Positions 19,852 through 36,804 of a stretch of DNA of 64,000 nt are shown here, piece by piece. A program made the position numbers and the translations under genes. The stretch spans positions 868,001 to 932,000 of the forward strand of contig NZ_CP048433.1 in the NCBI RefSeq assembly GCF_010509075.1, written 5' to 3'. The stretch's first letter is position 1; every line of letters starts with the position of its first letter. This stretch comes from Collinsella aerofaciens ATCC 25986 (GTDB taxonomy: Bacteria; Actinomycetota; Coriobacteriia; Coriobacteriales; Coriobacteriaceae). Below the pieces are notes generated by a model, which saw only the letters and a program-made list of their open reading frames with translations, was not told where the DNA came from and ran no database searches.

Positions 19852-19927
19852 GGTTCCCTCCAAAAGAGGGGCCTCCAAGAGCCGGGGTCTTACCCCCGGC
19901 ATTTTTTTGCAAAAATGGAGGCCCATC
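19852..19927 (+). ncRNA. Structured 5' leader of DUF3800 gene (DUF3800-type RNA motif candidate)
   Basis: Three elements are visible. CCCTC/GAGGG (19856-19870) forms hairpin 1. GCCGGGG/CCCCGGC (19881-19900) followed by seven T forms a terminator-like hairpin 2. GGGCCTCCA (19869-19877) is perfectly complementary to TGGAGGCCC (19916-19924), which contains the gene's Shine-Dalgarno. Helix 3 encloses hairpin 2 and competes with hairpin 1 for two bases. This suggests control by termination and/or hidden ribosome binding. Conserved RNA motifs beside DUF3800 genes have been reported from comparative genomics, as I recall; whether this is one of them is untested. Confidence 0.6.
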
Positions 19928-20605
19928 ATGAGCGAACTCTCCGTCTTTGTTGACGAATCTGGCGACCTCGGAGGCGTCTCCAACTACTACCTCGTCACCC
20001 TCGTTTTTCACGATCAAAACGATGCAATCGTTGAACGCATTGACCGCTACGAGCGCGCCCTGTCGCAGTCCTCGCTTCCCAATACGCCTTTTCATGCAGG
20101 ACCCCTACTGAATGGAAACGGCGACTACAAAGATCTTCCCAAGGAGCAGCGAAGGCACATGTTGAGCGCATTTCGCGCGTTCATTCAGCATCTCCCCATA
20201 CGCTATCTCTGTCTGCAATACCGAATGAGCGAATTCGCCGGCAATCAAAACGGTCTCGCGGAGAGAATGAGGCGAGACCTCACAGTTGAGCTTTTCGACC
20301 ATCTGAAAGTCTTCCAGCGATACGACACCGTTAAGATTTACTACGACAACGGCCAACCGATTGTAACGGAGGTCATTCATTCTGCGCTTGAGTACGTTCT
20401 AGCAAGGGATGTCATCGTATACCGAGAAGCCACACCACGAGCCTACCGGCTATTCCAAGTTGCTGACTACATCTGTACGATCGAGCTAACGGCTATCAAG
20501 TTTGACAGCAAGGAAGATACAAAGACTGATCGGCTATTTTTTGGAACCCGAAGGACGTTCAAAAAGGGATTTCTCTTATATCTCAGGAAGAAAAGGATGA
20601 ACTGA
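19928..20605 (+). CDS. DUF3800 domain protein
   Basis: The 225-residue protein opens with SVFVDESGDLG (acidic D9, E10, D13), the family hallmark, and has a later D-rich YYDNGQPI segment. DUF3800 is thought to have an RNase H-like fold, but its function is unknown. It is common in defence islands and on mobile elements. The ATG at 19928 has GGAGG 6 nt upstream. The gene converges on the BREX operon (7-nt gap between stops) and has lower G+C than housekeeping neighbours, consistent with acquisition. Confidence 0.85.
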   Translation: MSELSVFVDESGDLGGVSNYYLVTLVFHDQNDAIVERIDRYERALSQSSLPNTPFHAGPLLNGNGDYKDLPKEQRRHMLSAFRAFIQHLPIRYLCLQYRMSEFAGNQNGLAERMRRDLTVELFDHLKVFQRYDTVKIYYDNGQPIVTEVIHSALEYVLARDVIVYREATPRAYRLFQVADYICTIELTAIKFDSKEDTKTDRLFFGTRRTFKKGFLLYLRKKRMN

Positions 20606-20852: not shown

Positions 20853-22217
20853 TTACTCGTCAGCGCCAAGCACTTCCACGGCAGCAACAAAAGCCGCCAC
20901 TTGCTTGTCGTCCATCTGCGTGGCCAGGCGCCCCACGGGCTCATCGTAGGCATACTGAACCTTATCGATAAAGCAGTCCCAAGCGCGCTCGTCCACACGA
21001 ACGGCGGTCTCGCAATACTGGCTGAGCTTTTTGAGTCCATACCAAAACGCATTCACATGACGCGCGGGGTCCTCATCCAGCACACCATCGTAGCGACGCC
21101 CATTAAACTCACGCATGCGCGCCACGGTAACCTCGAGCGAGTCGCCGCCCTCGGCCGAAGCCTCATCCACAAGCTCGGGAATCGGAACCTCGCGCCGAAC
21201 ATCATGCCTGGTAGCGCCGTCGTACTCACCCACCAACACATCTTCGTCAAGCCGAGAATCGTAGTCAAAATAGCTCAAGCCACTACAGATCCCATGCGGC
21301 GAGCCCGTGCCAAACGCACAGAACAACCCACCGTCGATAACAACACGACGGTAGGTCTCAAACGACTTCTTAACCTGAGCGAGCAACTCGGAAAGCTCCC
21401 CGGCATCGCACGCCGTCTCGCACGCAACGCACACAGACTCGGGCAACGATACCGGCTCCACCGTGCTCCCCGCAACGCGGGCGGCACGCTCGGCCCGATA
21501 CGCCTGCGCCGCCAAGCGCGCTCGCTGCGCAGCGCCGCGCACGTTGGTAAGTTCACGCTCCAACGCCACATCACCAGCTACATCGCCAGCAAAATCGCCC
21601 GTAAACCCGTCAGCGCCCTGCGACCCCGTCGCACTCAGCTCAGATTCAAACGTCGCTGTGATCATGCCCGCAAGGTCCGTCGCATCGGCGGCACAACGCA
21701 GCTGCTCCAGCTGCGTACACAGCAGATCGGCATCCAGGGGCACGGCATCCACAACGCGCACGTCACTCAGGCGCGCCACGCCCTGCAGCACTAAAGCCCC
21801 CGCGGCATCGTACGCGGCACAAACCCTGTCCGCAGTATTGGCCCGCAGCTTTACCTCGATAAACGAAAGCGTCTGCTCCAGGCGCGTCAGCAATTCGGCC
21901 TTGTCCTCCATGCGCAAGAAGGCAGCATAGCGACGCTCCATCTTCAGCGGACCCACAACGCCCGCCTGTTTGCGAGCGCGCGCAAGGGCCGCACCCTCAA
22001 CACGGCGCACGTACGTATCAACAGCCCGCACGGCAGACTCGCGTGCAGCGCGCTCGGCGGTCTCGACGCCCCTAAGCACACCCAGTAGCTCGCGGGAGCG
22101 TGCCTTGGGCACCAACTCCCCGCGATCGTACTGCTCAAGCGCCGTCTGACGCTTGGTTACCGATTCAAAGCCAAACAGCTCGTCGAGCAGCTCACCAACA
22201 GAACGCTCGTCCGCCAT
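20853..22217 (-). CDS. Unrecognised 454-residue protein, BREX-linked
   Basis: I recognise no family. The N-terminal half (about 1-270) is rich in Ala, Arg, Glu and Leu and looks like long helices or coiled coil. The C-terminal half is mixed and has aromatic-rich segments (VVIDGGLFCAFGTGSPHG, SGLSYFDYDSRLDED, AFWYGLKKLSQYCETAV). The ATG at 22217 follows GGGAGG. It is 76 nt downstream of brxL in the same direction and is followed by the 70-residue gene, so it is likely co-expressed with BREX. It is not one of the core BREX genes that I know. Confidence 0.65.
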   Translation of the reverse strand: MADERSVGELLDELFGFESVTKRQTALEQYDRGELVPKARSRELLGVLRGVETAERAARESAVRAVDTYVRRVEGAALARARKQAGVVGPLKMERRYAAFLRMEDKAELLTRLEQTLSFIEVKLRANTADRVCAAYDAAGALVLQGVARLSDVRVVDAVPLDADLLCTQLEQLRCAADATDLAGMITATFESELSATGSQGADGFTGDFAGDVAGDVALERELTNVRGAAQRARLAAQAYRAERAARVAGSTVEPVSLPESVCVACETACDAGELSELLAQVKKSFETYRRVVIDGGLFCAFGTGSPHGICSGLSYFDYDSRLDEDVLVGEYDGATRHDVRREVPIPELVDEASAEGGDSLEVTVARMREFNGRRYDGVLDEDPARHVNAFWYGLKKLSQYCETAVRVDERAWDCFIDKVQYAYDEPVGRLATQMDDKQVAAFVAAVEVLGADE

Positions 22218-22293
22218 GGCAGGCCTCCCTACTCGAACACGCCAACATGCTCGCAGGGCGCCCGAACACCGAACGCCCCGCTCGCCCGCACCC

Positions 22294-24660
22294 CTACAGA
22301 TCCAGCGCCTTCTTCGCGGCGTCGACGGGATCGCCATCCATGTAGAACACCGGGCTCAGCCCCGAGATAATCTCGGACGAAACACTCTGCAGGCCCGCGA
22401 TGGCGCTCAGCGGCAAAATCACGCGCTTGGCGCCGGCGTTTTTGGCCACGCGCATAATGTCCTCGAGCCCGCGGATCTCGTCCATAGAGCCCGACATGCG
22501 CAAGATTCCCGGAATCGCCAGCGCGGGCATCACCGGGCGGTTGCACGCCGCGGAGCAAAGTCCCACAAACTCGGCGAGCGAAACCTCCTCGGACAGCCCC
22601 TTGCTCTGCAGGTCGTTGTAGAACAGCAGGTAATCCTTGGAGCCAATGTGCATGCCCGGCGCCACGCGGTTCGCCAGATTCACAAAGTTGTCGAACGCGG
22701 CCTCCAGCGTATCGCGCACCGGCTTGTTAAAGGCCACGCCCTCGTGCTTAAACTTGCACTCGCCGGCAACGGCCTTGTTCTCAAGCTTGTACACGGCAAC
22801 CTCGCCGCCCTGCGACCTGCCCACGCCAAACACGTGGCCGGACAGCAGCGGCCCGTCGGGAATCAGCGTGTCCTCGCTCTGCTCGGGCACGCGCACCACG
22901 TGCACGTCCTGCGGGTTGTCGGCATCCATATAGCCCAGGTTGACGTCGATAAACTCGACGCCCGCCATAATCTTGAGCTGCTCCTTTACGCGGCGACGGC
23001 CCTCGATGGCGTAATCCAACAGCCAGCGCACGTCGTCCTTGTCCATGGCCTCGTCGGGGAACAGCAGCTTGGCAAGGCCGCTAAAGGTCTTGCGCACGGC
23101 GATCTCGTCACGCTTGTTAAAGTCACTGTTAAAGCGGAAATACCGGTCGATATGGTGCGTAAAGTCTTTGCGGCGCATCTCCTTGCAAAACTCCGACAGG
23201 CAGTCGGTAATCAGGCCATAATGCCCGGTCAGCAGGCTCGAGCGCATCTTGGGAATCTCCCAGCCCGGCAGGTAGTAATGGATACGGTCGAAGAAGGCCG
23301 AATCGTTGTTAAACTCCGGCGGGAACGGATCAAACAGGTGCGTGGTCTTAAGGACATTTTGCACGGTGTCGTTGATGTTGCCCTCAAAGACCATGGAGGC
23401 GTCGGCGTTAATCTGGTCGCGGCCGCGTGCGTAACTGCCGCTCGCCATGTAGTCCTTCATGATCTGCACGGCGTTGGTGTCCTTAAACCGCATGCCGGCG
23501 ACCTCGTCGAACGTCACGCAATCCCAGTGGCCCACCAGGCCCACGCGATCGGCGCGCATGGAGTTCATACGGCCGAACAGGTTGGCCGTGGTGGTCTGAC
23601 CGCCCGAAAGCAAGATGGCGTAAGGCGAGACCTCTTTGTAGATATGGCTCTTGCCGGTGCCGCGGGGACCCAATTCGCACAGGTTGTAGTTGCGCTCGAT
23701 AAGCGGCACCATGCGCTCGATAAAGTGGAGGCGCTCTTTCTCGGAAAGCTCGCTGGGTTCGTAGCCAGCCGAGCGCAGCAGCATATTGAGCCACTCGTCG
23801 CGCGTAAAGTACTGGCGCTCGTCGATCATGGCATCCAGGTCCAGATTGGGCATCTGAATGGGCGTGAGCGACGCCACGCTAAACGGAGAGTCCTCGGGTC
23901 CGCGCTTTTTGCGCTTGGCCTTGGAGCGGCGCGGCGCATCGTCGCCAAAGACCTCCATGCCAAACTCGTCTTCCTCATCCACGGGATGACGATACTCGAT
24001 GCTCATAATGCACCAAATGCCGCCCTGCAGAATCTTGGAATAGTCGCGCACGTACTCGGCCGGCATCACAAACGGCTCGATGGTCAGGTTGGCAAACGAC
24101 GCCACGTAGATATCTTTGTACTCGTCGAGCTTGGCCGTCACCTTGTCGATGATGGTAAAACGACCCAGCTCGCGGATCTTGGACTTAATGCGCTCGGACT
24201 CGTCGGGGCGCACGTAGTTATCGGTAAGAATCCTGCGAATGCGGTCAAGGCCCTCCGCCACGGCTTCCTCGTCATCGGTTGAGCAGTACATGCCCAGCAG
24301 GTACTCCAGCACAAAGGTTGGCACGTTGGCGCCACGCTTCATAAGGGCCGTCAGGTCCTTACGCACGATCTTGCCAGCAAAGTGCTCAAGCAGCTTGCCG
24401 TCAAGGCCATCCATATCGTAGCCGTCGTCCTCGGGGGCCTCGGCCGCGGCCTGGTCATAGCCATCGGTCGAGGATTCGTCCTTGGTGGTCGCCGCAGCCT
24501 CAACGGGCGCGGCAGCAACCGGCTCCGGGGCAGGCGCAACAGCCTCAGTCGCCGGGGCCTCCGCAGCAGGCGCGGCCTCCGCAGGCACCACACCCTCCAC
24601 CGGCACATCCACATCAATCGAGGGAACTTCCCACAGATTGTCGTCATTGCTATCAAACAT
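22294..24660 (-). CDS. brxL: BREX protein BrxL (AAA+ ATPase with Lon-like C-terminal domain)
   Basis: BrxL is a core type 1 BREX protein, a ring-forming AAA+ DNA-binding ATPase required for phage exclusion in several systems. Walker A is GPRGTGKS at 331-338 (ELGPRGTGKSHIYKEVSPYA), followed by a Walker B-like HWDCVTFDEVAG and an N-terminal alpha region (LLEHFAGKIVRKDLT). At 788 residues it is longer than the roughly 680 I recall as usual. The excess is an Ala/Pro/Glu-rich acidic linker at residues 11-85. AGGAG precedes the ATG at 24660 by 9 nt. pglZ ends 11 nt upstream. Confidence 0.92.
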   Translation of the reverse strand: MFDSNDDNLWEVPSIDVDVPVEGVVPAEAAPAAEAPATEAVAPAPEPVAAAPVEAAATTKDESSTDGYDQAAAEAPEDDGYDMDGLDGKLLEHFAGKIVRKDLTALMKRGANVPTFVLEYLLGMYCSTDDEEAVAEGLDRIRRILTDNYVRPDESERIKSKIRELGRFTIIDKVTAKLDEYKDIYVASFANLTIEPFVMPAEYVRDYSKILQGGIWCIMSIEYRHPVDEEDEFGMEVFGDDAPRRSKAKRKKRGPEDSPFSVASLTPIQMPNLDLDAMIDERQYFTRDEWLNMLLRSAGYEPSELSEKERLHFIERMVPLIERNYNLCELGPRGTGKSHIYKEVSPYAILLSGGQTTTANLFGRMNSMRADRVGLVGHWDCVTFDEVAGMRFKDTNAVQIMKDYMASGSYARGRDQINADASMVFEGNINDTVQNVLKTTHLFDPFPPEFNNDSAFFDRIHYYLPGWEIPKMRSSLLTGHYGLITDCLSEFCKEMRRKDFTHHIDRYFRFNSDFNKRDEIAVRKTFSGLAKLLFPDEAMDKDDVRWLLDYAIEGRRRVKEQLKIMAGVEFIDVNLGYMDADNPQDVHVVRVPEQSEDTLIPDGPLLSGHVFGVGRSQGGEVAVYKLENKAVAGECKFKHEGVAFNKPVRDTLEAAFDNFVNLANRVAPGMHIGSKDYLLFYNDLQSKGLSEEVSLAEFVGLCSAACNRPVMPALAIPGILRMSGSMDEIRGLEDIMRVAKNAGAKRVILPLSAIAGLQSVSSEIISGLSPVFYMDGDPVDAAKKALDL

Positions 24661-24671
24661 AGGGCACACTC

Positions 24672-27380
24672 CTAAAAACCAAAGTCAGCAACAGGGGCAA
24701 ACGAAACAGCGATGGTATACGTCTCGCGCCAAACGATCTTGCCCGTCTCGCGCTCGCGGCAGACCAGATAGTACGGGCCCTTGGCCGAGAATCCATCCGC
24801 CGCATGCAACGCAAACTTGGCATGCACCACGCGCTCCTGCGAGTTAACAGAAGTCTTGTTGGCATGCGCCTTGACCGTATCGCTCACCTCGTTGCCGCTT
24901 GCATCGGTAAACACCAGCTCGTACTCGCACGGCAAGACCTTGCCTTGGACAGGTTCTTCCTGGATTAAGTTGACCGAGAAAAGCGAGTTGGTCACTCGGC
25001 GTCCCTCACTTAGTACGCGCAGTGTCGCTGCGCGCGTGTCGACAAAGTCCTTGGAACCCGAGCGTGCACGCCAAAATCCGATAACGGGCACGCAGAGCTC
25101 CTGCAGGCTCATGCCGCCGTGGACGTAGTTGTTAGTGCCGCCGGGACGCTTGAAGTGCACGTTCTCGCGCGGGGCAAACCCCTCAAATCCGGCTCCCAAA
25201 CGTCCCATGTCAACATTAACAAACACCCCACACGCCTCATCCGAAAGTTTGAGTACGGCCTCGTTGGGCACCACCAGATGACGTTTGCCGTGCATGACGG
25301 GAGCATCAAGGACGGGAAGGTCTGGCTTGCCGAGCATCTGGCACTCGTTGAGCTCCCGACGCGTGTAGATAAAGCCGTGGTCCGCCGTTATAACAACACG
25401 TGCGCCCGGGGCGTCGGTGCACACACGGCGCGCCAACGTGGCAAGTTCCTCCACAGTGTCCGCGCAGGCATCGAAGACGTCATCCTGCGTAGCGGCCTTC
25501 TCGCCCGTGGCATCGATCTTGTTGTGGTAGAGGTAGACGAGTCTTGAGTCCTTGAGCAGTACCTTGCGCTCGGTTCCCGCCATGTTGAGGTATGCGCTCG
25601 AGCGTAAAGCGCGGGCCGTGGGCTCAACGTGGGCGAGCACGGCCTCGCGCTGCGGAGTCGTCGCAGTGGGCATGCCGTCAGCCAACACAAATGGGCCATC
25701 TGCTGCAAGCTCAAGCGCTTGGTGCGGCAGCAGCGCGGGCATACCCACCTCGGTAATGGAGGGAAAGACCGCCTGCATGCTAGAGACCTTGACGTTGCCG
25801 CCGCGCTCGCGCTCGAGCAACGCCGCAACGTCACGAGCCACCTCATAGCGCAGCGCGTCGCTCACAATAACGACCGTCGTTTTGGCAGAGCCCACAAAGG
25901 TGGGCAGCATATGCCAGTAGAACTCATCCTGCCGTGAGGGACCTTCGATGTAGCCGCAATCGGCCCACTCCCCCTGCGCAGCGGCCGCCCAACAGGCATT
26001 GGCGTCGGCCAAGAACCAGTTGCTGTAGAGATTCTCCGCCCAGTCCGCCACAGAGCGGGCAGGCTCCTCGAGCGCATCACACTCGACGGAGCGCGCCCGC
26101 AGATACGCGGTGCACATATGGCGATAAGCAGCGTCCATGGCATACCAATCGGACGTGTAGGCATCCCACACCTGCTGGGGTTGCGCCAGATGGAACCCGC
26201 CCGCGTGCGCCTGCCTAAACGCACACATATCGGCCACAGCGGCAAGCAGGTCAAAATAGCTCTCGACACGACGGTACCAGCTCAGGTCGCAACGGCGCGC
26301 CACAAAGGCACGTGCGTCCTCAACGCGGTCCGCGCCCTGGGCAAACGAACTGAACAGCTGCGAGAGCACGGCCTCGTTGACGCACGGGAACACGTCAAGC
26401 GAGGCCAGCGCATCGATTGGCAGAGTCTCGAACCGCGCAAAGAGCCCACGGGCATCCTCCACCAAACGACAGATCTCAAATAGGTCCTCGCTCGATGCCT
26501 GGGTATCGGCGGCCTGGTCCCACGTGCGCACCGCCTCAAGGCAATAGGGGCCGTAGGCGGGAGCCACATAGCTTTCGAGCCCCTTGAGCGCTCCCTCGGG
26601 AAGCGCGGTTGATGCCGCCGTAAGGAGCACATGGGATGCAAGCATAAGCAATGAGTCACGCTCGTAAAGCGGCCCATCAAACCCATAGCAACGCACAATG
26701 AAGGCAGAGAGGGCATCGCGCACGCAGTACTTGTCCGCCAACTCAGCCAGCGCCTCGGGACCCTCGTGCAGCAACATGGTCATACAGCCACGCAGCACAA
26801 ACGCGGGGCGCGCGTCACCAGGCTCTTTACCGCCAAAAATCACCGTAAGGATGCCGAGTTCGATATCGGATGCGCCCGAGGCATGCGGAACACACGCGGC
26901 AAACTTAGCGCAGCGGGTCTTGGCATCAAAGAACGTCTTGTGCTCGCGCAGGCTCTCGCGCACGGCGTCGATATTCTCGATGCCCAGCTGATCGGCCAAA
27001 AGCGAAAGATAGTCAGCCTGGAACTGATCGGCATACAGCTCAACATCGGCAAGCCAATCACCCTCAAGCCTGCCGCGCGGGCAACGGCGATACAGCAAGA
27101 TATCGCTCGCAAGGTCATCGCGGTTGATGAGCTTCTTGACGGCAAACATACGGCCCTCGCAGGCCTCAACAAAGCGCACCGGGCGCTCAAAGTCACCGTG
27201 AGCAGACATTACGCCGGCATCGGCCCCCACGCCGTCGAAACCCTCGGCAGCCAATCGCTCAAACTCAGGAGCAAACTCGCCGTCCGCATCGTGCCAAACC
27301 ACAACACGGCGCGGCGCGCATGAGGACAACGGCTGCAAAAATCGCAGCTTGAGCTGTTCTTCTACATCGATCTTGGGCAT
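24672..27380 (-). CDS. pglZ: BREX alkaline-phosphatase-fold protein PglZ (type A)
   Basis: PglZ is a core BREX component with an alkaline-phosphatase-like catalytic core; its physiological substrate is unresolved. The 902 residues show the N-terminal VVVWHDADGEF, the metal-site motifs VVIVSDALRYEVA (centre) and VVITADHGFIYTRREL (about residue 665), and the C-terminal beta-rich domain. TAAGGA lies 6 nt before the ATG. It follows the C-terminal pglX fragment by 23 nt, so it should be translated from the same mRNA. Confidence 0.93.
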   Translation of the reverse strand: MPKIDVEEQLKLRFLQPLSSCAPRRVVVWHDADGEFAPEFERLAAEGFDGVGADAGVMSAHGDFERPVRFVEACEGRMFAVKKLINRDDLASDILLYRRCPRGRLEGDWLADVELYADQFQADYLSLLADQLGIENIDAVRESLREHKTFFDAKTRCAKFAACVPHASGASDIELGILTVIFGGKEPGDARPAFVLRGCMTMLLHEGPEALAELADKYCVRDALSAFIVRCYGFDGPLYERDSLLMLASHVLLTAASTALPEGALKGLESYVAPAYGPYCLEAVRTWDQAADTQASSEDLFEICRLVEDARGLFARFETLPIDALASLDVFPCVNEAVLSQLFSSFAQGADRVEDARAFVARRCDLSWYRRVESYFDLLAAVADMCAFRQAHAGGFHLAQPQQVWDAYTSDWYAMDAAYRHMCTAYLRARSVECDALEEPARSVADWAENLYSNWFLADANACWAAAAQGEWADCGYIEGPSRQDEFYWHMLPTFVGSAKTTVVIVSDALRYEVARDVAALLERERGGNVKVSSMQAVFPSITEVGMPALLPHQALELAADGPFVLADGMPTATTPQREAVLAHVEPTARALRSSAYLNMAGTERKVLLKDSRLVYLYHNKIDATGEKAATQDDVFDACADTVEELATLARRVCTDAPGARVVITADHGFIYTRRELNECQMLGKPDLPVLDAPVMHGKRHLVVPNEAVLKLSDEACGVFVNVDMGRLGAGFEGFAPRENVHFKRPGGTNNYVHGGMSLQELCVPVIGFWRARSGSKDFVDTRAATLRVLSEGRRVTNSLFSVNLIQEEPVQGKVLPCEYELVFTDASGNEVSDTVKAHANKTSVNSQERVVHAKFALHAADGFSAKGPYYLVCRERETGKIVWRETYTIAVSFAPVADFGF

Positions 27381-27403: not shown

Positions 27404-28372
27404 TTACTTAATCTTCGCCAGCACATCCTGAAACTTGGCGTAGTTGACCTTGACACCGTCATCCAGATCGATCTTAATCATCTGGTCTGCCAAGTGGTGC
27501 AGTTTCTCCTCGTAGGCAATGGTCTCTTTGAGCTGGTCGTTGAGCTTTTTGATGCGCTTATCCAAGCGCACGCGCTCGCCGCGCTCGGCACTGACAAGGG
27601 CATCGTTGGCATACCCGATCTGGGCACGGTAGCGCTCCTGCTGCTCATGCACATAGTCGGTGCGGATGCGAGCCAACAGGTCAGGCTGGTAGCGATGCAT
27701 GTAAACAAGGCACTTGAAGCCGTTCTTCTTGCCGCTGTCGAACAGCCAGTAGATGGGGCGCTTCTTATAGGTCTGGCAGTGGTCCTTATAGAAGTCCTTC
27801 AAAAAGCAGGTGCGAATCACCTCGCGCGAGGTGCCCTTGCCGCCGAGCGCCTCGGCAATAAAGGCCAGGTTCCGTTCGAGTGTCTCCTCGCCGTACACGG
27901 TGCGCACAAAGTCGATAAAGTAACGCACGATGTCGTCGTCAAAGTACTCGTCGTCGGTGATGGGCAGCACGTTGTCGGCATCGGGCATAAAGGTCACATG
28001 GGCGGGATCGGGCATCTTGGCCAGATAGTCGTCGACCGTGGTGCCCTGATCGGCCAGGACCAGGCCATCCACATCCAGCGAATAGCGGCCAAACATGCAG
28101 CCCACGGCATAGCTTAGGAGCGAGGTGATCTCATCGCGCTTAGTGCGCACGTATTTGTTGCCCTTATAGCTCTCGGGGATCTCATCGGCGGTATCAAAGA
28201 TGCGCGCCACCGAAACGTACTTATCCTCGACCTCGATGGGCACCTCCCCCTCCATGTTGTAGATCTTGGCAAAGATTCGGTTGAGCTCTTCCTCGTTAGC
28301 GCGAAGCTGCTCAAAGCGAGCATTGACCTCGGCCTTGCGAGCCTCGTATTTATCTTGAAGTAAAGTGGCCAT
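27404..28372 (-). CDS. pglX: PglX C-terminal domain, encoded as a separate protein
   Basis: The 322 residues match the C-terminal ~300 residues of full-length BREX-1 PglX as I recall it: LLQDKYEARKAE, NEEELNRIFAKIYNM, YAVGCMFGRYSLD, PITDDEYFDDDIV, KDFYKDHCQTYKKRP, IYWLFDSGKKNGFK, YVHEQQERYRAQ and DDGVKVNYAKFQDVLAKIK. It contains no methylase motif. It has its own ATG with AGAAAGGG 10 nt upstream, so it can be made independently. Together with the 830-residue N-terminal piece (29160-31652) it adds up to a normal PglX of about 1150 residues. The HEPN gene separates the two. Confidence 0.88.
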   Translation of the reverse strand: MATLLQDKYEARKAEVNARFEQLRANEEELNRIFAKIYNMEGEVPIEVEDKYVSVARIFDTADEIPESYKGNKYVRTKRDEITSLLSYAVGCMFGRYSLDVDGLVLADQGTTVDDYLAKMPDPAHVTFMPDADNVLPITDDEYFDDDIVRYFIDFVRTVYGEETLERNLAFIAEALGGKGTSREVIRTCFLKDFYKDHCQTYKKRPIYWLFDSGKKNGFKCLVYMHRYQPDLLARIRTDYVHEQQERYRAQIGYANDALVSAERGERVRLDKRIKKLNDQLKETIAYEEKLHHLADQMIKIDLDDGVKVNYAKFQDVLAKIK

Positions 28373-28408
28373 GACAGACCGCCCTTTCTTTGTTGAAAAG
28401 TGCGGCTA

Positions 28409-28427
28409 TGCAAATTTAAAATTTGCA
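28409..28427. promoter_or_regulatory. Palindrome between HEPN gene and pglX C-terminal gene
   Basis: The perfect palindrome TGCAAATTTAAAATTTGCA has 9-bp arms around one A, with loosely matching GCTA/TAGC outside. It lies in a 121-nt AT-rich gap. It could be an operator, a hairpin, or a trace of the insertion. Confidence 0.5.
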
Positions 28428-28493
28428 CTAGCCAGCTAAACAATTAACAGATTTAAATTCTTTACGGATTAAAGCGCGTCGTTTATTAATTCC

Positions 28494-29150
28494 CTAGTGT
28501 TTGTTGCTCTTTCTATGAATGAGCTTTTCAAATTCGCCTCTGCCAGCGTCCTTAAAATAAAAACGAGCGTCAATATCAATCGCCTTTATCCAGTCGGTAA
28601 ACGCCTTTTGAGGCAGAAGCATCATGGCAGTCGTTTTTCCACTTGAACCACCAGCTTTATCCTCGAGAAGCATCATTCCATTAGGGAAGTAATACGTACA
28701 CCCATGTGCAAGTGAATTGCGGATATGAGTTAGTAAAGTCATTCCTTTACCTGAGTCTTTAGGTTCGGGACCCTTGCGACCAGAGATTGTATAAGGTTGA
28801 ATACAGAGGACCCTCGGACTAACGATATCAATCGGAGCTTCAATCTCTTGTTTAACTCCATCAGCCGACTTTTGATTTACAGTTGTTTTAAATCCATATT
28901 CCTCAATCACATCTCCAAGATTATCAGCCATAAGTAATTCACGCTTCCCGGAAGGCACCCCTTCATACTCAAGAAGAGTATCGAATGGCAATTGTTTCAA
29001 TCCATAATCAGAGGCGGTTCTTCTTTGAGAGGCAGAGTTAGCTACAGATTTAGTCACAAAGAAATCCCAAATAGAAGAAATCTCATCCGGAGTCCAATAG
29101 CTAGATTCATGCAGAGACATATGAAATGAAGATATACAGGCTTTGTCCAT
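28494..29150 (-). CDS. HEPN-domain protein (putative RNase) inside the BREX operon
   Basis: The 218-residue protein carries the HEPN catalytic-type motif R-x4-H at R144-H149 (IRNSLAHGCTYYF), as in RNase-active HEPN toxins and defence proteins. The ATG at 29150 follows AGGTG; an in-frame GTG directly abuts the pglX stop TAG, so translation is probably coupled. The gene is AT-rich beside GC-rich neighbours, suggesting recent acquisition. It interrupts pglX between its specificity region and C-terminal domain. A role as abortive-infection effector guarded by BREX is inference. HEPN proteins without RNase activity also exist. Confidence 0.75.
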   Translation of the reverse strand: MDKACISSFHMSLHESSYWTPDEISSIWDFFVTKSVANSASQRRTASDYGLKQLPFDTLLEYEGVPSGKRELLMADNLGDVIEEYGFKTTVNQKSADGVKQEIEAPIDIVSPRVLCIQPYTISGRKGPEPKDSGKGMTLLTHIRNSLAHGCTYYFPNGMMLLEDKAGGSSGKTTAMMLLPQKAFTDWIKAIDIDARFYFKDAGRGEFEKLIHRKSNKH

Positions 29151-29159
29151 AACCAGCAC

Positions 29160-31652
29160 CTACACCAAAGGGTTATGTTTGAAATCCCAAGAGGTTTCAA
29201 ACGAATCCCAATCGGTTTTTGATAGTTCGCGGCACGAGTCGACCATGTCGTTGACCAACGGCTCCTGTTCCTTGTTCTGAATGATCGGGTAGGTTGCGAT
29301 TTGGCCTACCTCGAAATTAAGCGTCGGCGAGAGCATGCTTGCGACACGCATAATCACGGAGCTGTTACAAGCTCCCTGGAGATACTTGAGTGACTCCTCG
29401 TCGCTAAAAACGCTCGTGCCCGCCACATCAAAGATATGCCCAGCAGGCTTAAAACGAAACGCAATAGACCCGCTCGAGATTTTTGACCATGTAATCGAAG
29501 GCATAAAAAAACAGTCGGGATTTCGAATCACCGAACCCGCGAACTCTCGAACTAGGTGGCCATTGCTCTCCCAATTGATAACGCATTCATTATTACCGTA
29601 CCATTTACGAAAATCGCCTCCCTTGTTGTAGGGGAACCATTTGCAAGCGTTTTCAATCGACTCTTGAATAGATCCACAGGAATAGACGCTCTTGCAATCA
29701 TCGACTTCCCACCACTCGCGAACGAAACGAGCGTTCTCGCCAGTAGCAAGCCCTTGGCGCGGCTTGCCATACTCACTGAGCTGTTTTGCGTTTCCAAACG
29801 CATCCAGAAGAGCGTCACTGGCCCAGTAGGCTATGGGGGTGCCGGGGATTTGCTTGAAGGTGCCGGCGTCGCAGCGGTAGAACCAGCCGCAATCGGGGTT
29901 TTGGATGGCCTCGACCAGTTTGAGCCTCTTGGCCTCAGAGCCGTTGATATCAACAAGGCGCACATAGGCGCCCTCGGCGTCCGAATGCTGGTTGTAGATC
30001 ACGTCAGCTGTAACGTTGACGACCTCGCCGCCGATAGCATCAAACGCGCGAGGTCCCAGATGGGCCATGGAAACGATTGTCTTGTTGTCGATAACCTTGG
30101 CGCGCATCTTCTCAAAGCTGCCCAGGAACATCCAACTCTGCATGGTAACCATTGCGGCGTAGCCCTTATCCTCGACAAGGTTAAAACCGCGCTCGATAAA
30201 GCACGTGCAGAGGTCGCTCTTCACGTCGGGGTAGTTCTTCTTGATCCACTTGCTCATGAATGGATTAAAGCTGCTGCTGCCCATATACGGAGGATTCGCC
30301 ACGACGCAGATAAAACGACGGGACAGTTTCTCGCAAATGGCGACGGCGCTTTCGAGCTTAGTTTTGGTCGCAGAAGCAAAAAGGTCATCGGAACAACTCG
30401 CGGCGGCAGCCTTGAGCTCGTCGATCTCGTCCTCTGAGGGATTGAGCAGCGAACCGATCTCGCCCAAATGACTCAGCTCCTCGGCGAGCTTCTTGTTACC
30501 CGGCAGCTCGTCCTCCCCTAGCGGGATGCTCGAGAGCACGGTAACGTCGGCGCGAACGCCCCGCCCAAAGAAGCGACGGTCGTGCTCGCGGGCGCACATG
30601 GCAAGCGCCAGCTCCGCGATCTGTGCCGCGCGGGAATCGATTTCCATACCTGCAAGGTTTTTAGTAAGAATGAGCTCGGGAATCTCGCGCTCACGATAGC
30701 CGCGCTCCTCGTACATATGGAAGAGCAGCTCAAACGCATAGACCAAGATATGGCCCGAGCCGCATGCGGGGTCGCAGAGGGTTATCTCCTCGGGACTCGA
30801 AATGCGAATGAAGTCCTCGTGCTCAGCATCGGGCTCGATGTAATACTCCATGCGCTCGCGTAGCGAACTCCCCGGATTGTTGAGCATCCACAGACGGCCG
30901 AGCGAGTTCTCGACCATATAGCGCACAATCCACTCGGGGGTGAAGAGCTGCGTGGCGGGCGCGATGTCCGCCGCCGCTGCCTTGCGCTTGGACTTGAAGA
31001 ACTCGTCTTTAACGTCGGCATTGTAGTACTGATACATCCAGCCCAGAACGGTCACGCCCTCGCGCCAGTCCTCGTCAGTGAGGACGGCATTGAGTTTGCC
31101 CACCACGCTGTCAGCCATCATGAGGCCCTGGGGCAACAGCAGCTCCATGGCTCCGCCCACGCGTTCAAAGACGCCCGGCAGGCAATCGGCAAGCTCCTCG
31201 CACTGAGCAACAAACAGGTAGCGCCACAACGGTTCATCCAAGCCCGCCATCTTGAGCTCGGCTATGCGATCGGTATCGGCCGTCGTTATTTCCACGTCCA
31301 GTGCGTTCTCCACGGCCTCGCTGCCATGGCTGCCGTCCGCACGACTTAGCATGCGCATACGGCTGGGAAGCCATCCGTATGCATCCATGAAGCGAATGGC
31401 CACGATGCGGTTGAACCAGGTGTAGGCCGCACGGTCGCGCAGCGCCTCGTGACCCACCTCTGCCTGCATGCGCAGCAGTTCGTCGCGTTGCTCAATCTCA
31501 GCCGGACTTAGGGGCAGGCTGTTGACGGTCTCGGACCCAGCGGGCGCAGGTGCAGGTTCGGTGATGCCGTAGCGCACCATCTGCGCCTCAACGCCTTTGA
31601 TGAGCTCCGTGCGGGCCCAGGTGCAGAAGCTCTTAAGAGCAGAATCGTTCAT
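29160..31652 (-). CDS. pglX: BREX adenine methyltransferase PglX, N-terminal catalytic and specificity part
   Basis: PglX methylates adenine in a non-palindromic host site, marking self DNA. This 830-residue piece holds SAM motif I DPACGSG (294-300) and catalytic motif IV NPPY (453-456), followed by the target-recognition region. It ends DWDSFETSWDFKHNPLV-stop, the point where full-length PglX proteins continue into the C-terminal domain now encoded at 27404-28372. The last ~220 codons are visibly AT-richer than the methylase core. AGAAAGG precedes the ATG at 31652. brxC ends 66 nt upstream. Confidence 0.92.
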   Translation of the reverse strand: MNDSALKSFCTWARTELIKGVEAQMVRYGITEPAPAPAGSETVNSLPLSPAEIEQRDELLRMQAEVGHEALRDRAAYTWFNRIVAIRFMDAYGWLPSRMRMLSRADGSHGSEAVENALDVEITTADTDRIAELKMAGLDEPLWRYLFVAQCEELADCLPGVFERVGGAMELLLPQGLMMADSVVGKLNAVLTDEDWREGVTVLGWMYQYYNADVKDEFFKSKRKAAAADIAPATQLFTPEWIVRYMVENSLGRLWMLNNPGSSLRERMEYYIEPDAEHEDFIRISSPEEITLCDPACGSGHILVYAFELLFHMYEERGYREREIPELILTKNLAGMEIDSRAAQIAELALAMCAREHDRRFFGRGVRADVTVLSSIPLGEDELPGNKKLAEELSHLGEIGSLLNPSEDEIDELKAAAASCSDDLFASATKTKLESAVAICEKLSRRFICVVANPPYMGSSSFNPFMSKWIKKNYPDVKSDLCTCFIERGFNLVEDKGYAAMVTMQSWMFLGSFEKMRAKVIDNKTIVSMAHLGPRAFDAIGGEVVNVTADVIYNQHSDAEGAYVRLVDINGSEAKRLKLVEAIQNPDCGWFYRCDAGTFKQIPGTPIAYWASDALLDAFGNAKQLSEYGKPRQGLATGENARFVREWWEVDDCKSVYSCGSIQESIENACKWFPYNKGGDFRKWYGNNECVINWESNGHLVREFAGSVIRNPDCFFMPSITWSKISSGSIAFRFKPAGHIFDVAGTSVFSDEESLKYLQGACNSSVIMRVASMLSPTLNFEVGQIATYPIIQNKEQEPLVNDMVDSCRELSKTDWDSFETSWDFKHNPLV

Positions 31653-31718: not shown

Positions 31719-34700
31719 TTAGTTGATACGGATCTCGTCGTTTGCAGCGAGTGCCTGCATAAGGCGGGAGCGCAAGTCATCCACATAGCGCTCCACGTCC
31801 TCTGCGGACAAGAGACGACTCGGCTTGGCCAGATCGGCGCGGCGCACGGTCTTGATCTTGCGCTGGGGCTTGGGCGCGGGCACGGGAGCAGACGATGCGG
31901 CGCCCTTGTTGGAGACCTTCTTGACCACCTCACCCGTACTCGTGACCTCAGTGGTGCGGCGCTCGTTGTCCATGCGCATGCGGGCCGCATCCACGGCGTC
32001 GTATATCTTGTTGGTTGCAGCAACGATCCAGTTGCCCCAGTTAGTCGCGGCAACACTCAGCTCGTTGAGGCTTTGAGCACTGTGGGCACGGTTTTTGAAC
32101 GACTCGTATTTGGCGGCGGCTTCTGCTATGGCATCCTTGGCTTGATTGACAAAGCCCTTTTGACTCTCAGCCTGTGCCTGCAGGTCTTGCAGATCGCTCT
32201 CGATGCGGCACAAAAACTCATTGCGGCGGATGCCCAGCAGCTTTTTTATGTCGTCCTCAACGGGATCCATAAGCGGCTGCAGGTCTTTAATGCGGCCATA
32301 GGGCTTGGGATCTTTGAGGATCTCGCGCACCTTTGCCACGTTCTCCACCGCGTTGGGAATGTCATCGGAGACATACTCAATACCCTCGGTGCGACTCAAG
32401 AAATCCTTGGCGTGATCAAACGCCGTTCGTTGGTTGGACTCGAAGAACTCAACCACCCTGTCAAAGTCTTCCTTGGCATCGAGCAGGCGGTCCTCGTGCT
32501 TGGTGAAGGTGGTCAAGAATGCCTCGGACTCGCTCTGGTCCTTAAGGATGTCGGCGACCTCCGAGCGCATCTTCTCGCACTCGTCCTCACCGGGATACGG
32601 GTAGGCTGGTTTGATGCCCGTGTAGTAGTCGCGTGCCATGGCGAGGCACGCCTCGCGCAAGTCCTCAAGGCGCGCTTTAAGCTCGGCCACGAGCTTATCC
32701 TCGTTGGAGGGCACGGTGCCAAGCTCAAACAGGTCACGCATAAGCTCGCCCGTATCGCACAGCAAACGGTCACTCATGCGCATACGCAAGCGCACCTGGG
32801 CTTTATCGGCATCCTTGCGCAGGAGTGCCACCATGCGGCTATCGTTGGCTTGAACCGTTTGACCGCCAAACAGCACCTGCGCGCGCTGCTCCACCACAAG
32901 CTGCGCCACCACATTTGCGATATCGACCTCGCGCCAGCCAAAGGGTCTTTGCTGGTACTGGCGCTGGATATCGCCCATAGCGGTATCCAGGTGGCGCTGG
33001 TGCTGAACTTTGAGGTAGTCCTCGACCTCCTTGAGCGCACGCATGTTGCCCGCGTCCATGCCAGCGAGCCCAGCTTGAACGTTGCCCGCCAGAGTGGAGC
33101 GGATATCGGAATCGCTCGTGACCGGCGCGCCGATATAGTCGGCCTTTTCAAAGACCACATCGCACAGCTGCGCCAGCACCTGCTCAAAAACCTGGGCGGG
33201 TTTGGCCGCGCGGACCTCAACCATGCGGCCGTTGACCGCGCAACGTGCATGGAGCACGGCCTCGCTCAAAAGGGTATCGGCCTCCTTCTCGTTATAAGCC
33301 GCCTCGCGCATCTTGGACTCGACGATCTGGCGCGTACTCGGCTGAAGCTCCTGGAGATTTCGCGTCTTGGCGTACTTGCGGATCTTGGCGGCGTTGACGA
33401 GCGTCTCCCAATAATCCGCCTCGTCGCTCAAGGCCACGATGGCTTTGCCCGAAGAAGCCAAGGCCAGCTCGGTATCGTCCGCACGGCCCAGGTCGCTCGC
33501 CATAGTCGCCACGTAAAGCTCCATGCCGCCCATGCTGGTACCGTGGATTGAGCCGTCCACATAGCGGTCAAACGGAAAGTCGTTGGCCCCGCGGTTGAGT
33601 TTGCGCGCGGTGTAGATGCTGTCGAACAGGCGCTTTTTGATAGACTCGATCACCTGCGCGTTATCGATCGGGGTGCGTGCGATCTCCTGCGCTATCTCCT
33701 GCTCCTCGTCGGTGAGGAAGCTATAGGTATCGCCCTGGCGTGCCACGTAGTTCTCGCGCTCCAGGCGGGCAAGGGACTCCTTGACGCGGTCCTTGAGGGC
33801 GCGCATGTCCACGTCGAGGCCGTCGATCATGAAGATGGAGATGTTCTCGGCCGTGGCCTTAACGTAGCCGATGTAACGAATCAGGTACAGGAGCTTGAGC
33901 ACCTGAACGTCGTAGGGTTCAAGGCCCTCTGCGTCCTCGGCCGCACGGACCGCGCGGTCGACCACCTGGATGATGCCGTGCTCAAGGTCTTTGGAGATAG
34001 TATCGAAGAAGCGCCAGAACGGCACGAGCGCACCGGTCTGGTCATGCTGGATGGCCTGAGCGCTCTCCTGGAACGCGCTCAGCATGGAGCGCTCGCCCGT
34101 TGACATGTGCTTGGCCTTGACACCGTGCTTGCGCACCTCGGTCATCACGTCGGGCAGGAGCTTAAACTGGTAGCCCACAAACGGGTAGCTGGCCACAAAA
34201 TCCTTGGAGTTGGCGTAGCCGGCAAGGTCGGAGCGCGAGCCACCCTCAAAGGTAAAGTTGTTTTTAAGCACGGCGGCGTCTTGCTCGTAGACCTGTGCAA
34301 GCATATCGGCCACCGGCGCGGTCTTCTCGAGCACACGGCGCTGGATGACCTCGTCCACGCTGGAGCTGGAGAGCGAAAGTCGGGTATTGAAACGGCCTTG
34401 GATCTTTGAAAAGTCGTTGCCCACGGGCAGGCTCAGGTTGTCGATGGCCTCCTGGCTCGTGACCATCACCCACACGCGGCCACCGCAGGCGGCACCCAAC
34501 TCCTCGACGATGGTCTGAAGGCTCAGCATAAGGCTTGGGTCCTGGTCGTTTGTAATAAACTGACCCACCTCGTCGACCATAAAGAGCAAACGGAAGTTGC
34601 CGCCGTGGGCCGCTGCCTGAGCGTCCACGTAGTCCTTGACCTTTTTGGCAAAGACATCAGGGGCCAAAACCTCGTCCTCAGAACCCTCGAGCCAGTTCCA

Positions 34701-35381
34701 TGCGGCCTTTTCGCTCATGCCGAGCACGCTCTGCAGCACCTCGACGACGTCGTCCTCAAAGTAGCTGTAGGTATCGCGGGTCTGGAGCCAGGACTCGCCG
34801 TTGACGCGCTCAAAGGCCTCGCGGAACTCCTGGGTCTTGCCCAGGGAATCGATGTATTCCTCGAGCTTTGCAAGCTTGAGGTCCTCGCCGTAGAAGCCGC
34901 GCGCCTCGTAGAACATGCGCTCAAAGCCGCGAAGCAGCGCCGTGGGAGCCGTATCACCCTGCTTCCACTGGCCCGCCTTGCTATCGATGTTAAAGAGGAT
35001 GGCCTGCGTGGACACCGAGCAGGCGCGCTCCATGGCAGCCTCGACCATGGGGTCGACGATCTTGCCGTCAAAGTAGCGGATGGCGCTCTTGCCGCCGATC
35101 TGGCGATTCTCGAGCAGGTAGCTCAGCATCTTGAGGAAGTGCGATTTACCAGAACCGAAGAAACCACTGATCCACACGCCGATCTTGTCGGTGGACACAT
35201 CGATGGCATCGCCGTAGGCCTTGAAGAACGTGGCAAAATGCCTCTGCAACTCGCGCGTCACCACGTACTCGTCAAGCTCCTGGCGGATGGACCCATCTTT
35301 TGAATCCTGGACCTTGACCACGCCGTTGATGGAGCGGTTGATGTCTTTAGCAAAGAGGTCGCGAATGATCGTGTTGTCCAT
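31719..35381 (-). CDS. brxC: BREX ATPase BrxC (PglY-like)
   Basis: This large P-loop ATPase is essential for BREX. The 1220 residues open MDNTIIRDLFAKDINRSING, a family-typical start. Walker A is GFFGSGKS (73-80) and a Walker B-like LLFMVDEVGQFI lies near residue 270. The C-terminal third is helical and highly charged. AAAGGAG lies 6 nt before the ATG. Length and order (after brxB, before pglX) are standard for type 1. Confidence 0.95.
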   Translation of the reverse strand: MDNTIIRDLFAKDINRSINGVVKVQDSKDGSIRQELDEYVVTRELQRHFATFFKAYGDAIDVSTDKIGVWISGFFGSGKSHFLKMLSYLLENRQIGGKSAIRYFDGKIVDPMVEAAMERACSVSTQAILFNIDSKAGQWKQGDTAPTALLRGFERMFYEARGFYGEDLKLAKLEEYIDSLGKTQEFREAFERVNGESWLQTRDTYSYFEDDVVEVLQSVLGMSEKAAWNWLEGSEDEVLAPDVFAKKVKDYVDAQAAAHGGNFRLLFMVDEVGQFITNDQDPSLMLSLQTIVEELGAACGGRVWVMVTSQEAIDNLSLPVGNDFSKIQGRFNTRLSLSSSSVDEVIQRRVLEKTAPVADMLAQVYEQDAAVLKNNFTFEGGSRSDLAGYANSKDFVASYPFVGYQFKLLPDVMTEVRKHGVKAKHMSTGERSMLSAFQESAQAIQHDQTGALVPFWRFFDTISKDLEHGIIQVVDRAVRAAEDAEGLEPYDVQVLKLLYLIRYIGYVKATAENISIFMIDGLDVDMRALKDRVKESLARLERENYVARQGDTYSFLTDEEQEIAQEIARTPIDNAQVIESIKKRLFDSIYTARKLNRGANDFPFDRYVDGSIHGTSMGGMELYVATMASDLGRADDTELALASSGKAIVALSDEADYWETLVNAAKIRKYAKTRNLQELQPSTRQIVESKMREAAYNEKEADTLLSEAVLHARCAVNGRMVEVRAAKPAQVFEQVLAQLCDVVFEKADYIGAPVTSDSDIRSTLAGNVQAGLAGMDAGNMRALKEVEDYLKVQHQRHLDTAMGDIQRQYQQRPFGWREVDIANVVAQLVVEQRAQVLFGGQTVQANDSRMVALLRKDADKAQVRLRMRMSDRLLCDTGELMRDLFELGTVPSNEDKLVAELKARLEDLREACLAMARDYYTGIKPAYPYPGEDECEKMRSEVADILKDQSESEAFLTTFTKHEDRLLDAKEDFDRVVEFFESNQRTAFDHAKDFLSRTEGIEYVSDDIPNAVENVAKVREILKDPKPYGRIKDLQPLMDPVEDDIKKLLGIRRNEFLCRIESDLQDLQAQAESQKGFVNQAKDAIAEAAAKYESFKNRAHSAQSLNELSVAATNWGNWIVAATNKIYDAVDAARMRMDNERRTTEVTSTGEVVKKVSNKGAASSAPVPAPKPQRKIKTVRRADLAKPSRLLSAEDVERYVDDLRSRLMQALAANDEIRIN

Positions 35382-35459: not shown

Positions 35460-36152
35460 TTACGAGATATCGATGGCGCGGTAGTAGTTGTCGGCCGGCA
35501 GACGGTTAAAGAGCTGGAAAGAAGAGCCGTTGAAACTGCCCGGATAGGCGGCGACCACAGGCACCTCATCAAAATCCGCAAGCATGCAGTGGAGAAGCGT
35601 GTGTATGCGAAAGAACGGGAAAACCTCGCCCGCGCCAGTAAGGAGAACGACGTCTCCAGGCGCGTGCGGTTCGGTCTGCTCAAGGATGTACGCGGCGACT
35701 TTCTCAGGCGAGGCGAACTTGGCCACGTCCTCGAGCACGCGCTGGGTACCGCGGCGCTCCTCTTGGTGCGGGATAGCCTTGAGGACACGGCGCTTTTCGA
35801 GAATTGCCAGCACGGCGTCGTAAAGGTTCATGACCTTGAGCGTGCACGGAAGCTTGTCGGCCTCGGCATCGCGTGAAAGGGTGTCAAATAATGCACGCGC
35901 CTCAAACTCCAGCGCGGGGTCATAGCAAAAAGTGTGGAAGCCGATCTCATTGCCTATGCCCTTGTTGGCCAAAAAGTCCTCGCTGCACAGGCACTCGCGC
36001 AGAAGCTGCGCACGGCGCTCAAATTCCTGACAGGCGCGCTCGGAGCGGGCATGCGCCGCCACGACGCTCTTGCGGGAATGGATGCCGATATTGGTGGTGA
36101 GATCGGTCGCCGGGGTGATAACAGGGTCGACGGCGCTTTTGACGGGAGCCAC
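35460..36152 (-). CDS. brxB: BREX protein BrxB (DUF1788)
   Basis: The 230-residue protein matches the DUF1788 pattern, including GIGNEIGFHTFCYDPALEFEA, VLLTGAGEVFPFFRIHTLLH and the end VVAAYPGSFNGSSFQLFNRL. It is a core BREX component of unknown biochemical role. It starts at GTG 36152, 1 nt after the brxA stop codon, so its translation is probably coupled to brxA and would be affected by the brxA reading-frame switch. The Shine-Dalgarno is weak. Confidence 0.92.
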   Translation of the reverse strand: MAPVKSAVDPVITPATDLTTNIGIHSRKSVVAAHARSERACQEFERRAQLLRECLCSEDFLANKGIGNEIGFHTFCYDPALEFEARALFDTLSRDAEADKLPCTLKVMNLYDAVLAILEKRRVLKAIPHQEERRGTQRVLEDVAKFASPEKVAAYILEQTEPHAPGDVVLLTGAGEVFPFFRIHTLLHCMLADFDEVPVVAAYPGSFNGSSFQLFNRLPADNYYRAIDIS

Positions 36153-36153
36153 G

Positions 36154-36804
36154 CTACATCACCGCCCTGCCGGTAAGGGCCGCGATAAGCGACTGCTCGC
36201 CCAGCTGAACCAAGACTCGCTCGACATCGAAATCGAGGAAGAGTGGTGACAGGCGCTCGGACTCCGGGCCCTGGCCCTCGCCGATAAGGCCGGCATGGCG
36301 GAGCGTCTGGCGGAGCGAGCCCTTAATGCACTTGACCGTGGCCTCAGTCCAGCGGGCCGCGTCCGGATACTCCGTGGTAAAGCGTGTCATAAAGGCGTTG
36401 AGGTCAACCGCCGTAAAGGCATAATCGAAGTTTTGTAGGCGCTCCCCTACCTCGACGAGCACGAGCTCGCGCACGATATCGTAGCGGCAGATCATGCTGT
36501 AGAAGATGGCCTGGTCCGTCTGCGTGGGAGTGCCGGATGCCATGAGCCTGGTTAGGGATGACGCAGCCTCGACGGCGGTTTTGGGGTCGATGCCGCGCGC
36601 GGCGCATACGGCGTCCGTGGGCACCATGGCGTCAAGGCGGCGAAGGCACACGGTTGCGCGGTTGGCGACCATGCGCTCCGTGGGATATTGAAAGAGGTTC
36701 TCGCTCTTTACGCGTACAATGACCTGCTCGTCGCTTGCGCCCTGCATACGAAGGGCAGCGACGATGCGCATCTCATGCGGGAGGAATTGCTCGCGGGTGA
36801 GCAC
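36154..36804 (-). CDS. brxA: BREX protein BrxA (DUF1819); start lies in a poly-G tract
   Basis: The 216 residues match BrxA (EMRIVAALRMQGASDEQV, ENLFQYPTERMVANRATVCLRRL), a small winged-helix DNA-binding core protein. As written, the frame opens only at a GTG whose G is the last of a ten-G run, with no spaced Shine-Dalgarno. A GTG at 36838 with GGAG 8 nt upstream begins MDVTTKSVR, but with ten G it shifts frame and stops about 20 codons in. With 9 or 12 G it would join brxA and give the expected longer N-terminus. The state here is therefore probably off, or reduced, unless the run length is an assembly error. Confidence 0.9.
   Translation of the reverse strand: MLTREQFLPHEMRIVAALRMQGASDEQVIVRVKSENLFQYPTERMVANRATVCLRRLDAMVPTDAVCAARGIDPKTAVEAASSLTRLMASGTPTQTDQAIFYSMICRYDIVRELVLVEVGERLQNFDYAFTAVDLNAFMTRFTTEYPDAARWTEATVKCIKGSLRQTLRHAGLIGEGQGPESERLSPLFLDFDVERVLVQLGEQSLIAALTGRAVM

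Follow-up and report, generated by a model that had tools for sequence, protein, structure and literature searches.

Background

Bacteriophage exclusion (BREX) systems of type 1, known from E. coli, Salmonella and Acinetobacter, are defined by the six core genes brxA, brxB, brxC, pglX, pglZ and brxL and by a methylase, PglX or BrxX, that is a single polypeptide. In BrxX of E. coli, the target recognition domain (TRD) comprises residues 651-837 and the C-terminal domain (CTD) residues 838-1205 (PMC11842806). The TRD is the most variable part of the protein, and Ocr binds to both TRD and CTD (PMC11842806). Changes in the C-terminal part of PglX are reported to uncouple methylation from restriction (PMC13326643). 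Here, we describe a BREX type 1 operon of Collinsella aerofaciens ATCC 25986 which has the same six core genes and the same order of PglX domains. Two genes code for its PglX, and a variable gene for a putative HEPN protein lies between them, in contrast to 16 fused homologues with a variable linker of only 3-25 aa at this joint. The operon lies within a stretch of 64,000 nt (contig NZ_CP048433.1, positions 868,001 to 932,000), termed the window, to which coordinates refer unless another locus is named.

Genes for HEPN proteins in the vicinity of BREX are not new. HEPN domains, including those of the pEK499_p136 type, were described in 2013 as embedded in Pgl operons “in a few instances” (PMC3710099), and a large survey of 2026 catalogues, as backup nucleases, genes of the HEPN, PIN, Schlafen and OLD/TOPRIM types located next to BREX loci or inside them (PMC12839542). 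The passages of both papers on these effectors hold no split PglX, no effector inside the methylase gene and no cassette of TRD plus effector; the word “split” does not occur in the main text of PMC12839542. BREX-linked HEPN genes are thus already known, whereas we found no earlier account in the open literature of a PglX that is split around another gene.

A related arrangement is that of PrrC, an HEPN-type RNase whose gene is linked to a DNA-methylating restriction operon, the type Ic restriction-modification system EcoprrI. PrrC is silenced by the linked type I enzyme and freed by a phage inhibitor, and it has been proposed to act as a second line of defence once the first has been blocked (PMC2610378). 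However, PrrC has an ATP-binding cassette (ABC) ATPase and is located with hsd genes, whereas the window protein is small (218 aa), without an ATPase match, and is encoded in a BREX operon between the halves of one methylase.

A two-piece PglX in a BREX-1 operon

The window carries a complete BREX-1 operon on the minus strand in the order brxA, brxB, brxC, pglX-N, a small gene, pglX-C, pglZ and brxL (Table 1). The core set is present in full (6/6), on one strand and in one cluster, except that PglX is represented by two polypeptides instead of one. Since all PglX domains are present, we treat the system as a variant of BREX type 1.

PglX-N matches the BREX-1 PglX profile NF033452 (1210 positions) at 1-899 (E 2.7e-273) and the PADLOC model PDLC02521 at 1-869 of 1174. 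PglX-C, from its residue 4 on, matches NF033452 at 906-1209 (E 1.4e-114), with a score of 384 bits that lies under the model's cut-off of 500. Judged by these complementary profile matches, the two predicted proteins together cover PglX, with a few model positions at most unaccounted for. Alignments to the solved PglX/BrxX proteins place the break near residue 871, just past the TRD and in the first part of the CTD, because PglX-N aligns up to E. coli residue 870 (Salmonella 885) and residue 21 of PglX-C aligns to E. coli BrxX 892. Both frames are intact and each has its own start site.

The initial annotation had proposed a PglX made in two pieces around an HEPN gene, with both methylase motifs in the 830-residue piece. 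The open reading frames (ORFs) and their profile coverage confirm this division, the 322-residue piece does align with the PglX C-terminus, and the motifs DPACGSG and NPPY were both seen by eye in PglX-N.

Recurrence of the split and of the filled gap

Matches to PglX-C were found in 45 of 396 genomes of the class. In 35 of these the match lies in a short stand-alone frame (33 clear cases and two cut by contig ends), and in the remaining ten it is part of frames of 723-1327 aa. PglX-N is located upstream, followed by a gap, in 25 of the 35 short-frame genomes (window included); five have the order C then N and five could be assigned to neither. A scan of named genomes with the split PglX-C as bait revealed the split, among the matches listed, in records of Collinsella, Slackia, Adlercreutzia, Enterorhabdus, Olsenella and Atopobium, and also in Pseudoflavonifractor, Gemmiger, Intestinimonas, Agathobaculum, Oscillibacter, Selenomonadaceae, a metagenome-assembled genome of Spirochaetales and others, many of them metagenome bins. 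When a fused bait was used on the class of the Pseudoflavonifractor genome, 31 of 391 genomes matched; two of these have a clear stand-alone frame, including the genome at the centre of the search. The split is therefore frequent among Coriobacteriia but rare in the Pseudoflavonifractor-class sample, the baits being different (split and fused, respectively). Among 13 matches in viral contigs, 12 are fused and one (L160) is split.

An annotated isolate record of C. aerofaciens shows the same arrangement, with brxC, pglX (836 aa), two “hypothetical” genes (199 and 322 aa), pglZ and brxL. This operon is flanked by serC/serA and a potassium/proton antiporter gene, and the neighbours in the window are similar by eye. 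As PglX-C is called “hypothetical protein” in this one record examined, such systems can look truncated to standard annotation pipelines.

The same joint between domains is broken in nearly every split locus that has complete ends. Of 49 split rows, 42 have a PglX-N tail of the form ...DWDSFETSWDFkrHPLV. The seven exceptions comprise three rows truncated by a contig end, two (L091, L143) in which the motif has an altered or extended tail, and two (L093, L099) with a different end. The split PglX-C proteins share the head M-x-x-L-I-x-DKY...NEEELNRIF, and its motif L-[IL]-x-[DEN]-K-[YF] was found in 49/52 split and 2/35 fused sequences. A single clean splitting event seems unlikely, as a tree of 88 PglX-C rows demands at least five changes of label on starred branches. 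With the head motif common to so many split proteins, recombination of one old split form is a possible alternative to repeated splitting.

Pooling of several sources gave 48 distinct N-to-C gaps, all of at least 556 bp and none empty; one set of 42 rows alone gave 42/42 at or above this length. An ATG-initiated ORF of at least 80 aa begins within 30 nt of the PglX-N stop in 35/48 gaps; the reverse strand gave 1/48, and 100 shuffles gave 0.4 on average. With the distance extended to 101 nt and no restriction to ATG, an ORF of at least 80 aa begins in 47/48 gaps, whereas the reverse strand has 10/48 and 100 shuffles average 2.7 (maximum 6). Chance may account for a few of these ORFs, as at L093 and at L104, whose DUF2971 gene begins 239 nt further on.

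The layout is not a fixed one. In eight rows the order is C then N, with 9-13 bp between the halves in four, 113 bp in L096, 1442 bp in L099 and an overlap in two that arises only through the choice of an upstream start. Two of these loci, L096 (10975-15689) and L099 (12406-16976), each have a second TRD piece in inverted orientation, together with inverted repeats of 122-159 nt that are imperfect (77-85%), an arrangement that may be an invertible specificity switch. At L086 (6858-13557), one PglX-C lies between two PglX-N genes that are 77% identical.

PglX-C is under purifying selection, with ratios of nonsynonymous to synonymous substitution rates (dN/dS) of 0.07-0.13 over 15 pairs. This selection, the free gene order and the sharing of one PglX-C by two PglX-N genes at L086 would fit a C subunit working in trans. 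Single damaged copies were also observed elsewhere: the frame of PglX-C in G210 contains a TAG, L093 has an atypical PglX-N tail, and PglX-N of genome G299 (L045 7249-12054) is broken by about 2.1 kb of other DNA.

A candidate HEPN gene in the break

The small gene has PglX-N and PglX-C as its direct neighbours. Its start had been described as abutting the pglX stop, which agrees with an ATG 9 nt, or a GTG 0 nt, after the stop codon. The product contains RNSLAH at residues 144-149, which fits the HEPN criterion R-x4-6-H with a polar residue after R. In an alignment with 16 relatives from the same slot, R144, N145, A148 and H149 are the only invariant columns (17 sequences), corresponding to the RNxxAH form of the motif. 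A hidden Markov model (HMM) built from the other 16 relatives matches the window protein with an E-value of 1.2e-13 among 4546 ORFs, and one built from three Pfam-linked relatives (L110, L134, L127) at 1.4e-9. Two of these, L110 and L134, exceed the Pfam curated cut-off for pEK499_p136 HEPN (PF18736). In a weak structure model (mean predicted local distance difference test score, pLDDT, 60.5), the motif stands at the end of a better-modelled helix, as is expected for the HEPN fold (PMC3710099). On these sequence grounds we call the protein HEPN, and it presumably has RNase activity. An ABC ATPase domain, as in PrrC and RloC, was not found in the 218-aa protein by Pfam, nor was a minimal nucleotidyltransferase neighbour, as in HEPN-MNT pairs, among ten window proteins scanned with Pfam, NCBIfam and PADLOC.

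The HEPN HMM matches 18 N-to-C gaps (16 of which had contributed to it) and one C-to-N locus, where the gene lies at the PglX-N end. None of 37 fused-PglX loci had a match (counts uncorrected for phylogeny).

Other genes in the slot

HEPN genes occupy 21 of the 48 gaps. Eighteen are of the RNxxAH form (as second ORF of the gap in L042) and three of the RiboL-PSP family (L040, L131, L055). The further occupants are diverse and include DUF2971 (4/48, one just under cut-off), SIR2_2 (2/48), RES (2/48, both under cut-off and one weak) and, in single gaps each, FRG, AAA_21 plus DUF4276, DUF4760 and a helix-turn-helix (HTH) protein. Genes of toxin-antitoxin or Schlafen-AlbA type were assigned in 2/48 gaps, in L116 by Pfam (a later gene of the gap) and in L117 only via a near-identical first ORF. 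Predicted membrane proteins without family were detected in 4/48 gaps by a simple hydropathy scan. Altogether, a toxin- or defence-type domain is present in 32/48 gaps, three of these below the Pfam cut-off.

Five of ten occupants scanned with PADLOC match candidate or known defence models (HEC-01A, PDC-S15, PDC-S31, ThsA/PDC-S25; the SIR2 match of L049 is weak), and two RNxxAH HEPN and two RiboL-PSP occupants match no model. The HEC-01A match is that of L143 (E 5e-187). HEC-01, after the PADLOC model names, is similar to the present case in that defence genes are embedded in a larger methylase-containing operon, which we take to be the Hma system.

Additional genes were observed in some gaps. 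An antisense DUF3800 gene, 42-52% identical to the DUF3800 gene of the window (19907-20605), occurs in 12/48 gaps. Long gaps contain a large further gene of about 1140-1205 aa (L049, L051, L062) or about 970 aa (L053, L063); that of L053 is an SNF2-type helicase, and that of L049 has no family match.

The initial annotation suggested a deliberate architecture with an HEPN effector and advised a search for the order PglX-N, HEPN, PglX-C. Its reading is partly supported. The split and the filled N-to-C gap do recur and are not peculiar to this assembly, but HEPN is only one of many occupants, so that the conserved feature is the slot and not the HEPN gene. The N-to-C gaps are always filled, but the C-to-N loci depart from the layout. 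In fused loci, other cargo is found on either side of pglX, towards brxC or towards pglZ; hence, the slot adds one more gene junction to those at which BREX operons generally take up cargo.

Exchange of the TRD and of the effector

DNA of the window was compared with five Collinsella relatives (L036, L037, L039, L040, L041). The flanks on both sides are mostly 80-100% identical. In L036, L040 and L041, the TRD half and the effector, from about 30.2 kb on, are only 38-70% identical, and in L037 the drop, to 39-58%, begins at about 29.85 kb. L039 stays at 76-98% across the TRD half, because it shares the TRD of the window, and its effector is not shared with the window. Identity is low in the 121-bp spacer behind the effector and returns to 92-97% at the start of PglX-C in all five relatives. 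L041 is also diverged in a stretch of brxB and the 5′ part of brxC (53-80%). The GC content is 0.39-0.51 in windows starting at 28250-29450, which span the last part of PglX-N and the HEPN gene.

The proteins show the same picture. Residues 560-830 of PglX-N are 41-51% identical to four relatives and 90% to L039. Window and L039 are alike by 90% in the TRD and by 23% in the effector, L036 and L039 by 93% in the effector (dN/dS about 0.18) and by 45% in the TRD. L036 and L040 share 90% in the TRD, and their effectors are 18% alike, give no blastp match and belong to different HEPN families. An effector specific to its TRD was rejected for these close relatives on account of this reassortment (window, L036, L039, L040). 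By such comparisons, TRD and effector are separate modules, and in these relatives the effector is not bound to a single methylase specificity. The relatives have conserved DNA both at the 3′ end of pglX-N and where pglX-C begins, and these stretches could act as homology anchors.

Discussion

The break has the appearance of a durable design and not of damage. We consider it rather probable that PglX is a two-subunit protein whose TRD/CTD joint has become an exchangeable slot for specificity plus effector, the effector being a backup or abortive toxin; we infer that BREX controls it. PglX-N and PglX-C would come together in trans as the functional methylase and factor for phage recognition. 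The split would turn the TRD/CTD joint into a gene junction, at which new TRDs or effectors could be recombined in without in-frame fusion. The HEPN protein, as a putative metal-independent RNase made in step with PglX-N, would be kept quiet while BREX is intact; phage attack or inhibition of BREX would then trigger it, so that RNA is cut and the infection aborted. By analogy with PrrC, the slot effectors may form a second layer that responds to the sensing of phage or to the disabling of BREX. As an effector can change while the TRD stays the same, the controlling partner, if any, should be a constant part of BREX and not the TRD.

More tentatively, and with distinctly less confidence, BREX-1 of Coriobacteriia and some Clostridia may be seen as a modular platform. 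Its two-subunit PglX would be a socket for unrelated killers (HEPN RNases, SIR2/RES NADases, FRG, DUF2971, membrane proteins), all checked by one constant core and fired when this core detects phage or is inhibited, and specificity and effector would be refreshed independently at fixed short anchors.

Several points weigh against a slot of BREX-controlled effectors. The window HEPN protein has no match in Pfam, NCBIfam or PADLOC at the thresholds used, is only 15-27% identical to its relatives, and has a poor structure model and an uninformative fold search. HEPN relatives are also encoded outside BREX, at L169 and L170, where tblastn found no BREX gene, and in a viral contig (L171 5923-6570, 27%) between opposite-strand genes resembling tail genes, in the manner of a prophage moron; the HEPN protein therefore need not depend on BREX. 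No common adaptor among the effector families was noticed, without a systematic search for one. Nine of 48 gaps are without a family, membrane or HTH call, L093 and the first ORF of L138 being outside the library scan, and in L042, L104, L116 and L143 the recognised gene does not abut PglX-N or starts at least 101 nt away. In L121, a C-to-N locus, the junctions of the split measure 10-13 bp each and no effector is present. Finally, the CTD of Salmonella PglX could not be expressed alone (PMC11341690).

The main doubt, arising from the unrelated effector families and the HEPN relatives outside BREX, makes a serious rival of the explanation that the break is a recombination-prone landing site, where self-contained defence or toxin genes ride as passengers behind PglX-N without BREX control. 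The matches of half of the scanned occupants to stand-alone defence models, the similar cargo at other gene junctions of fused-PglX loci and the reassortment of TRD and effector all agree with passengers. However, a mere landing site accords poorly with a slot that is never empty in 48 N-to-C gaps, with cargo nearly always on the same strand and within tens of bases of the PglX-N stop, far above chance, and with the restriction of the HEPN family to split as opposed to fused loci. Overall, we regard passengers without control as a doubtful explanation.

Less likely still is that the split mainly serves the swapping or inversion of TRDs, with the gap gene incidental. The hypervariable TRD half on a nearly constant backbone, the inverted second TRD pieces of L096 and L099 with their flanking inverted repeats, the two PglX-N genes of L086 and the cargo-free split of L121 point to such shuffling of specificity, whereas an incidental gene would hardly be found as cargo in 48/48 N-to-C gaps and vary independently of the TRD. 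A broken pglX (frameshift, pseudogene, insertion damage or assembly error), for which the damaged copies described above and a truncated PglX-C relic in the same genome might speak, is extremely improbable. For the window, the comparative data refute it: the frames are intact with their own starts, there is purifying selection, and the same break occurs across lineages in many independent assemblies including isolates, which excludes chance and assembly error and bears out the earlier claim of two intact polypeptides.

An exchangeable slot of this kind bears on how BREX restricts phage and on how backup effectors are wired to it. The natural split just past the TRD offers a ready two-part tool to part recognition from the CTD, and repeated entry of unrelated effectors offers a direct test of whether one BREX signal fires different killers. 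The slot is also a place to seek new anti-phage effectors, given the gaps without a call.

Features of the window operon

The coordinates of the operon are collected in Table 1.

Table 1. BREX-1 operon of the window, with the parts of the exchangeable cassette
Feature	Position	Strand	Evidence or size
brxA	36154..36804	-	PF08849 1.5e-30
brxB	35460..36152	-	PF08747 4.3e-32
brxC	31719..35381	-	NF033441 1068.9 bits; PDLC02471
PglX-N: N-terminal domain, N6-adenine methylase domain, TRD; ends DWDSFETSWDFKHNPLV*	29160..31652	-	830 aa
Variable half of PglX-N (end of methylase domain and TRD); approximate 5′ edge of exchangeable cassette	29160..30200	-	DNA and protein identity to relatives
Putative HEPN-family effector gene, ATG start, 218 aa	28494..29150	-	ORF list, motif, HMM
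Putative HEPN-family effector, alternative GTG start directly after pglX-N TAG, 221 aa	28494..29159	-	ORF list
Spacer of 121 bp from effector stop to PglX-C start, AT-rich, Shine-Dalgarno-like GAAAGGG	28373..28493	-	Sequence
PglX-C: PglX C-terminal domain as separate protein, 322 aa	27404..28372	-	NF033452 906-1209/1210; BrxX residues 892-1195
pglZ (BREX-1 type A)	24672..27380	-	TIGR02687 1.3e-125
brxL	22294..24669	-	TIGR02653 4.7e-257

A second, truncated PglX-C fragment is located elsewhere in the same genome (G000:C1:786710-787186; L071 8678-9169) and is likely what remains of another BREX locus. The DUF3800 gene of the window (19907-20605, plus strand), whose product we take to be RNase H-like, lies downstream of brxL on the opposite strand. 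Directly after brxL, a gene of 494 aa (20853-22337, minus strand) matched nothing in Pfam, NCBIfam or PADLOC at the thresholds applied. Copies of it with 85-89% identity are present in the Collinsella loci L038/L078, L076, L077, L079, L080, L081 and L172, and weaker copies in L083, L098 and L086.

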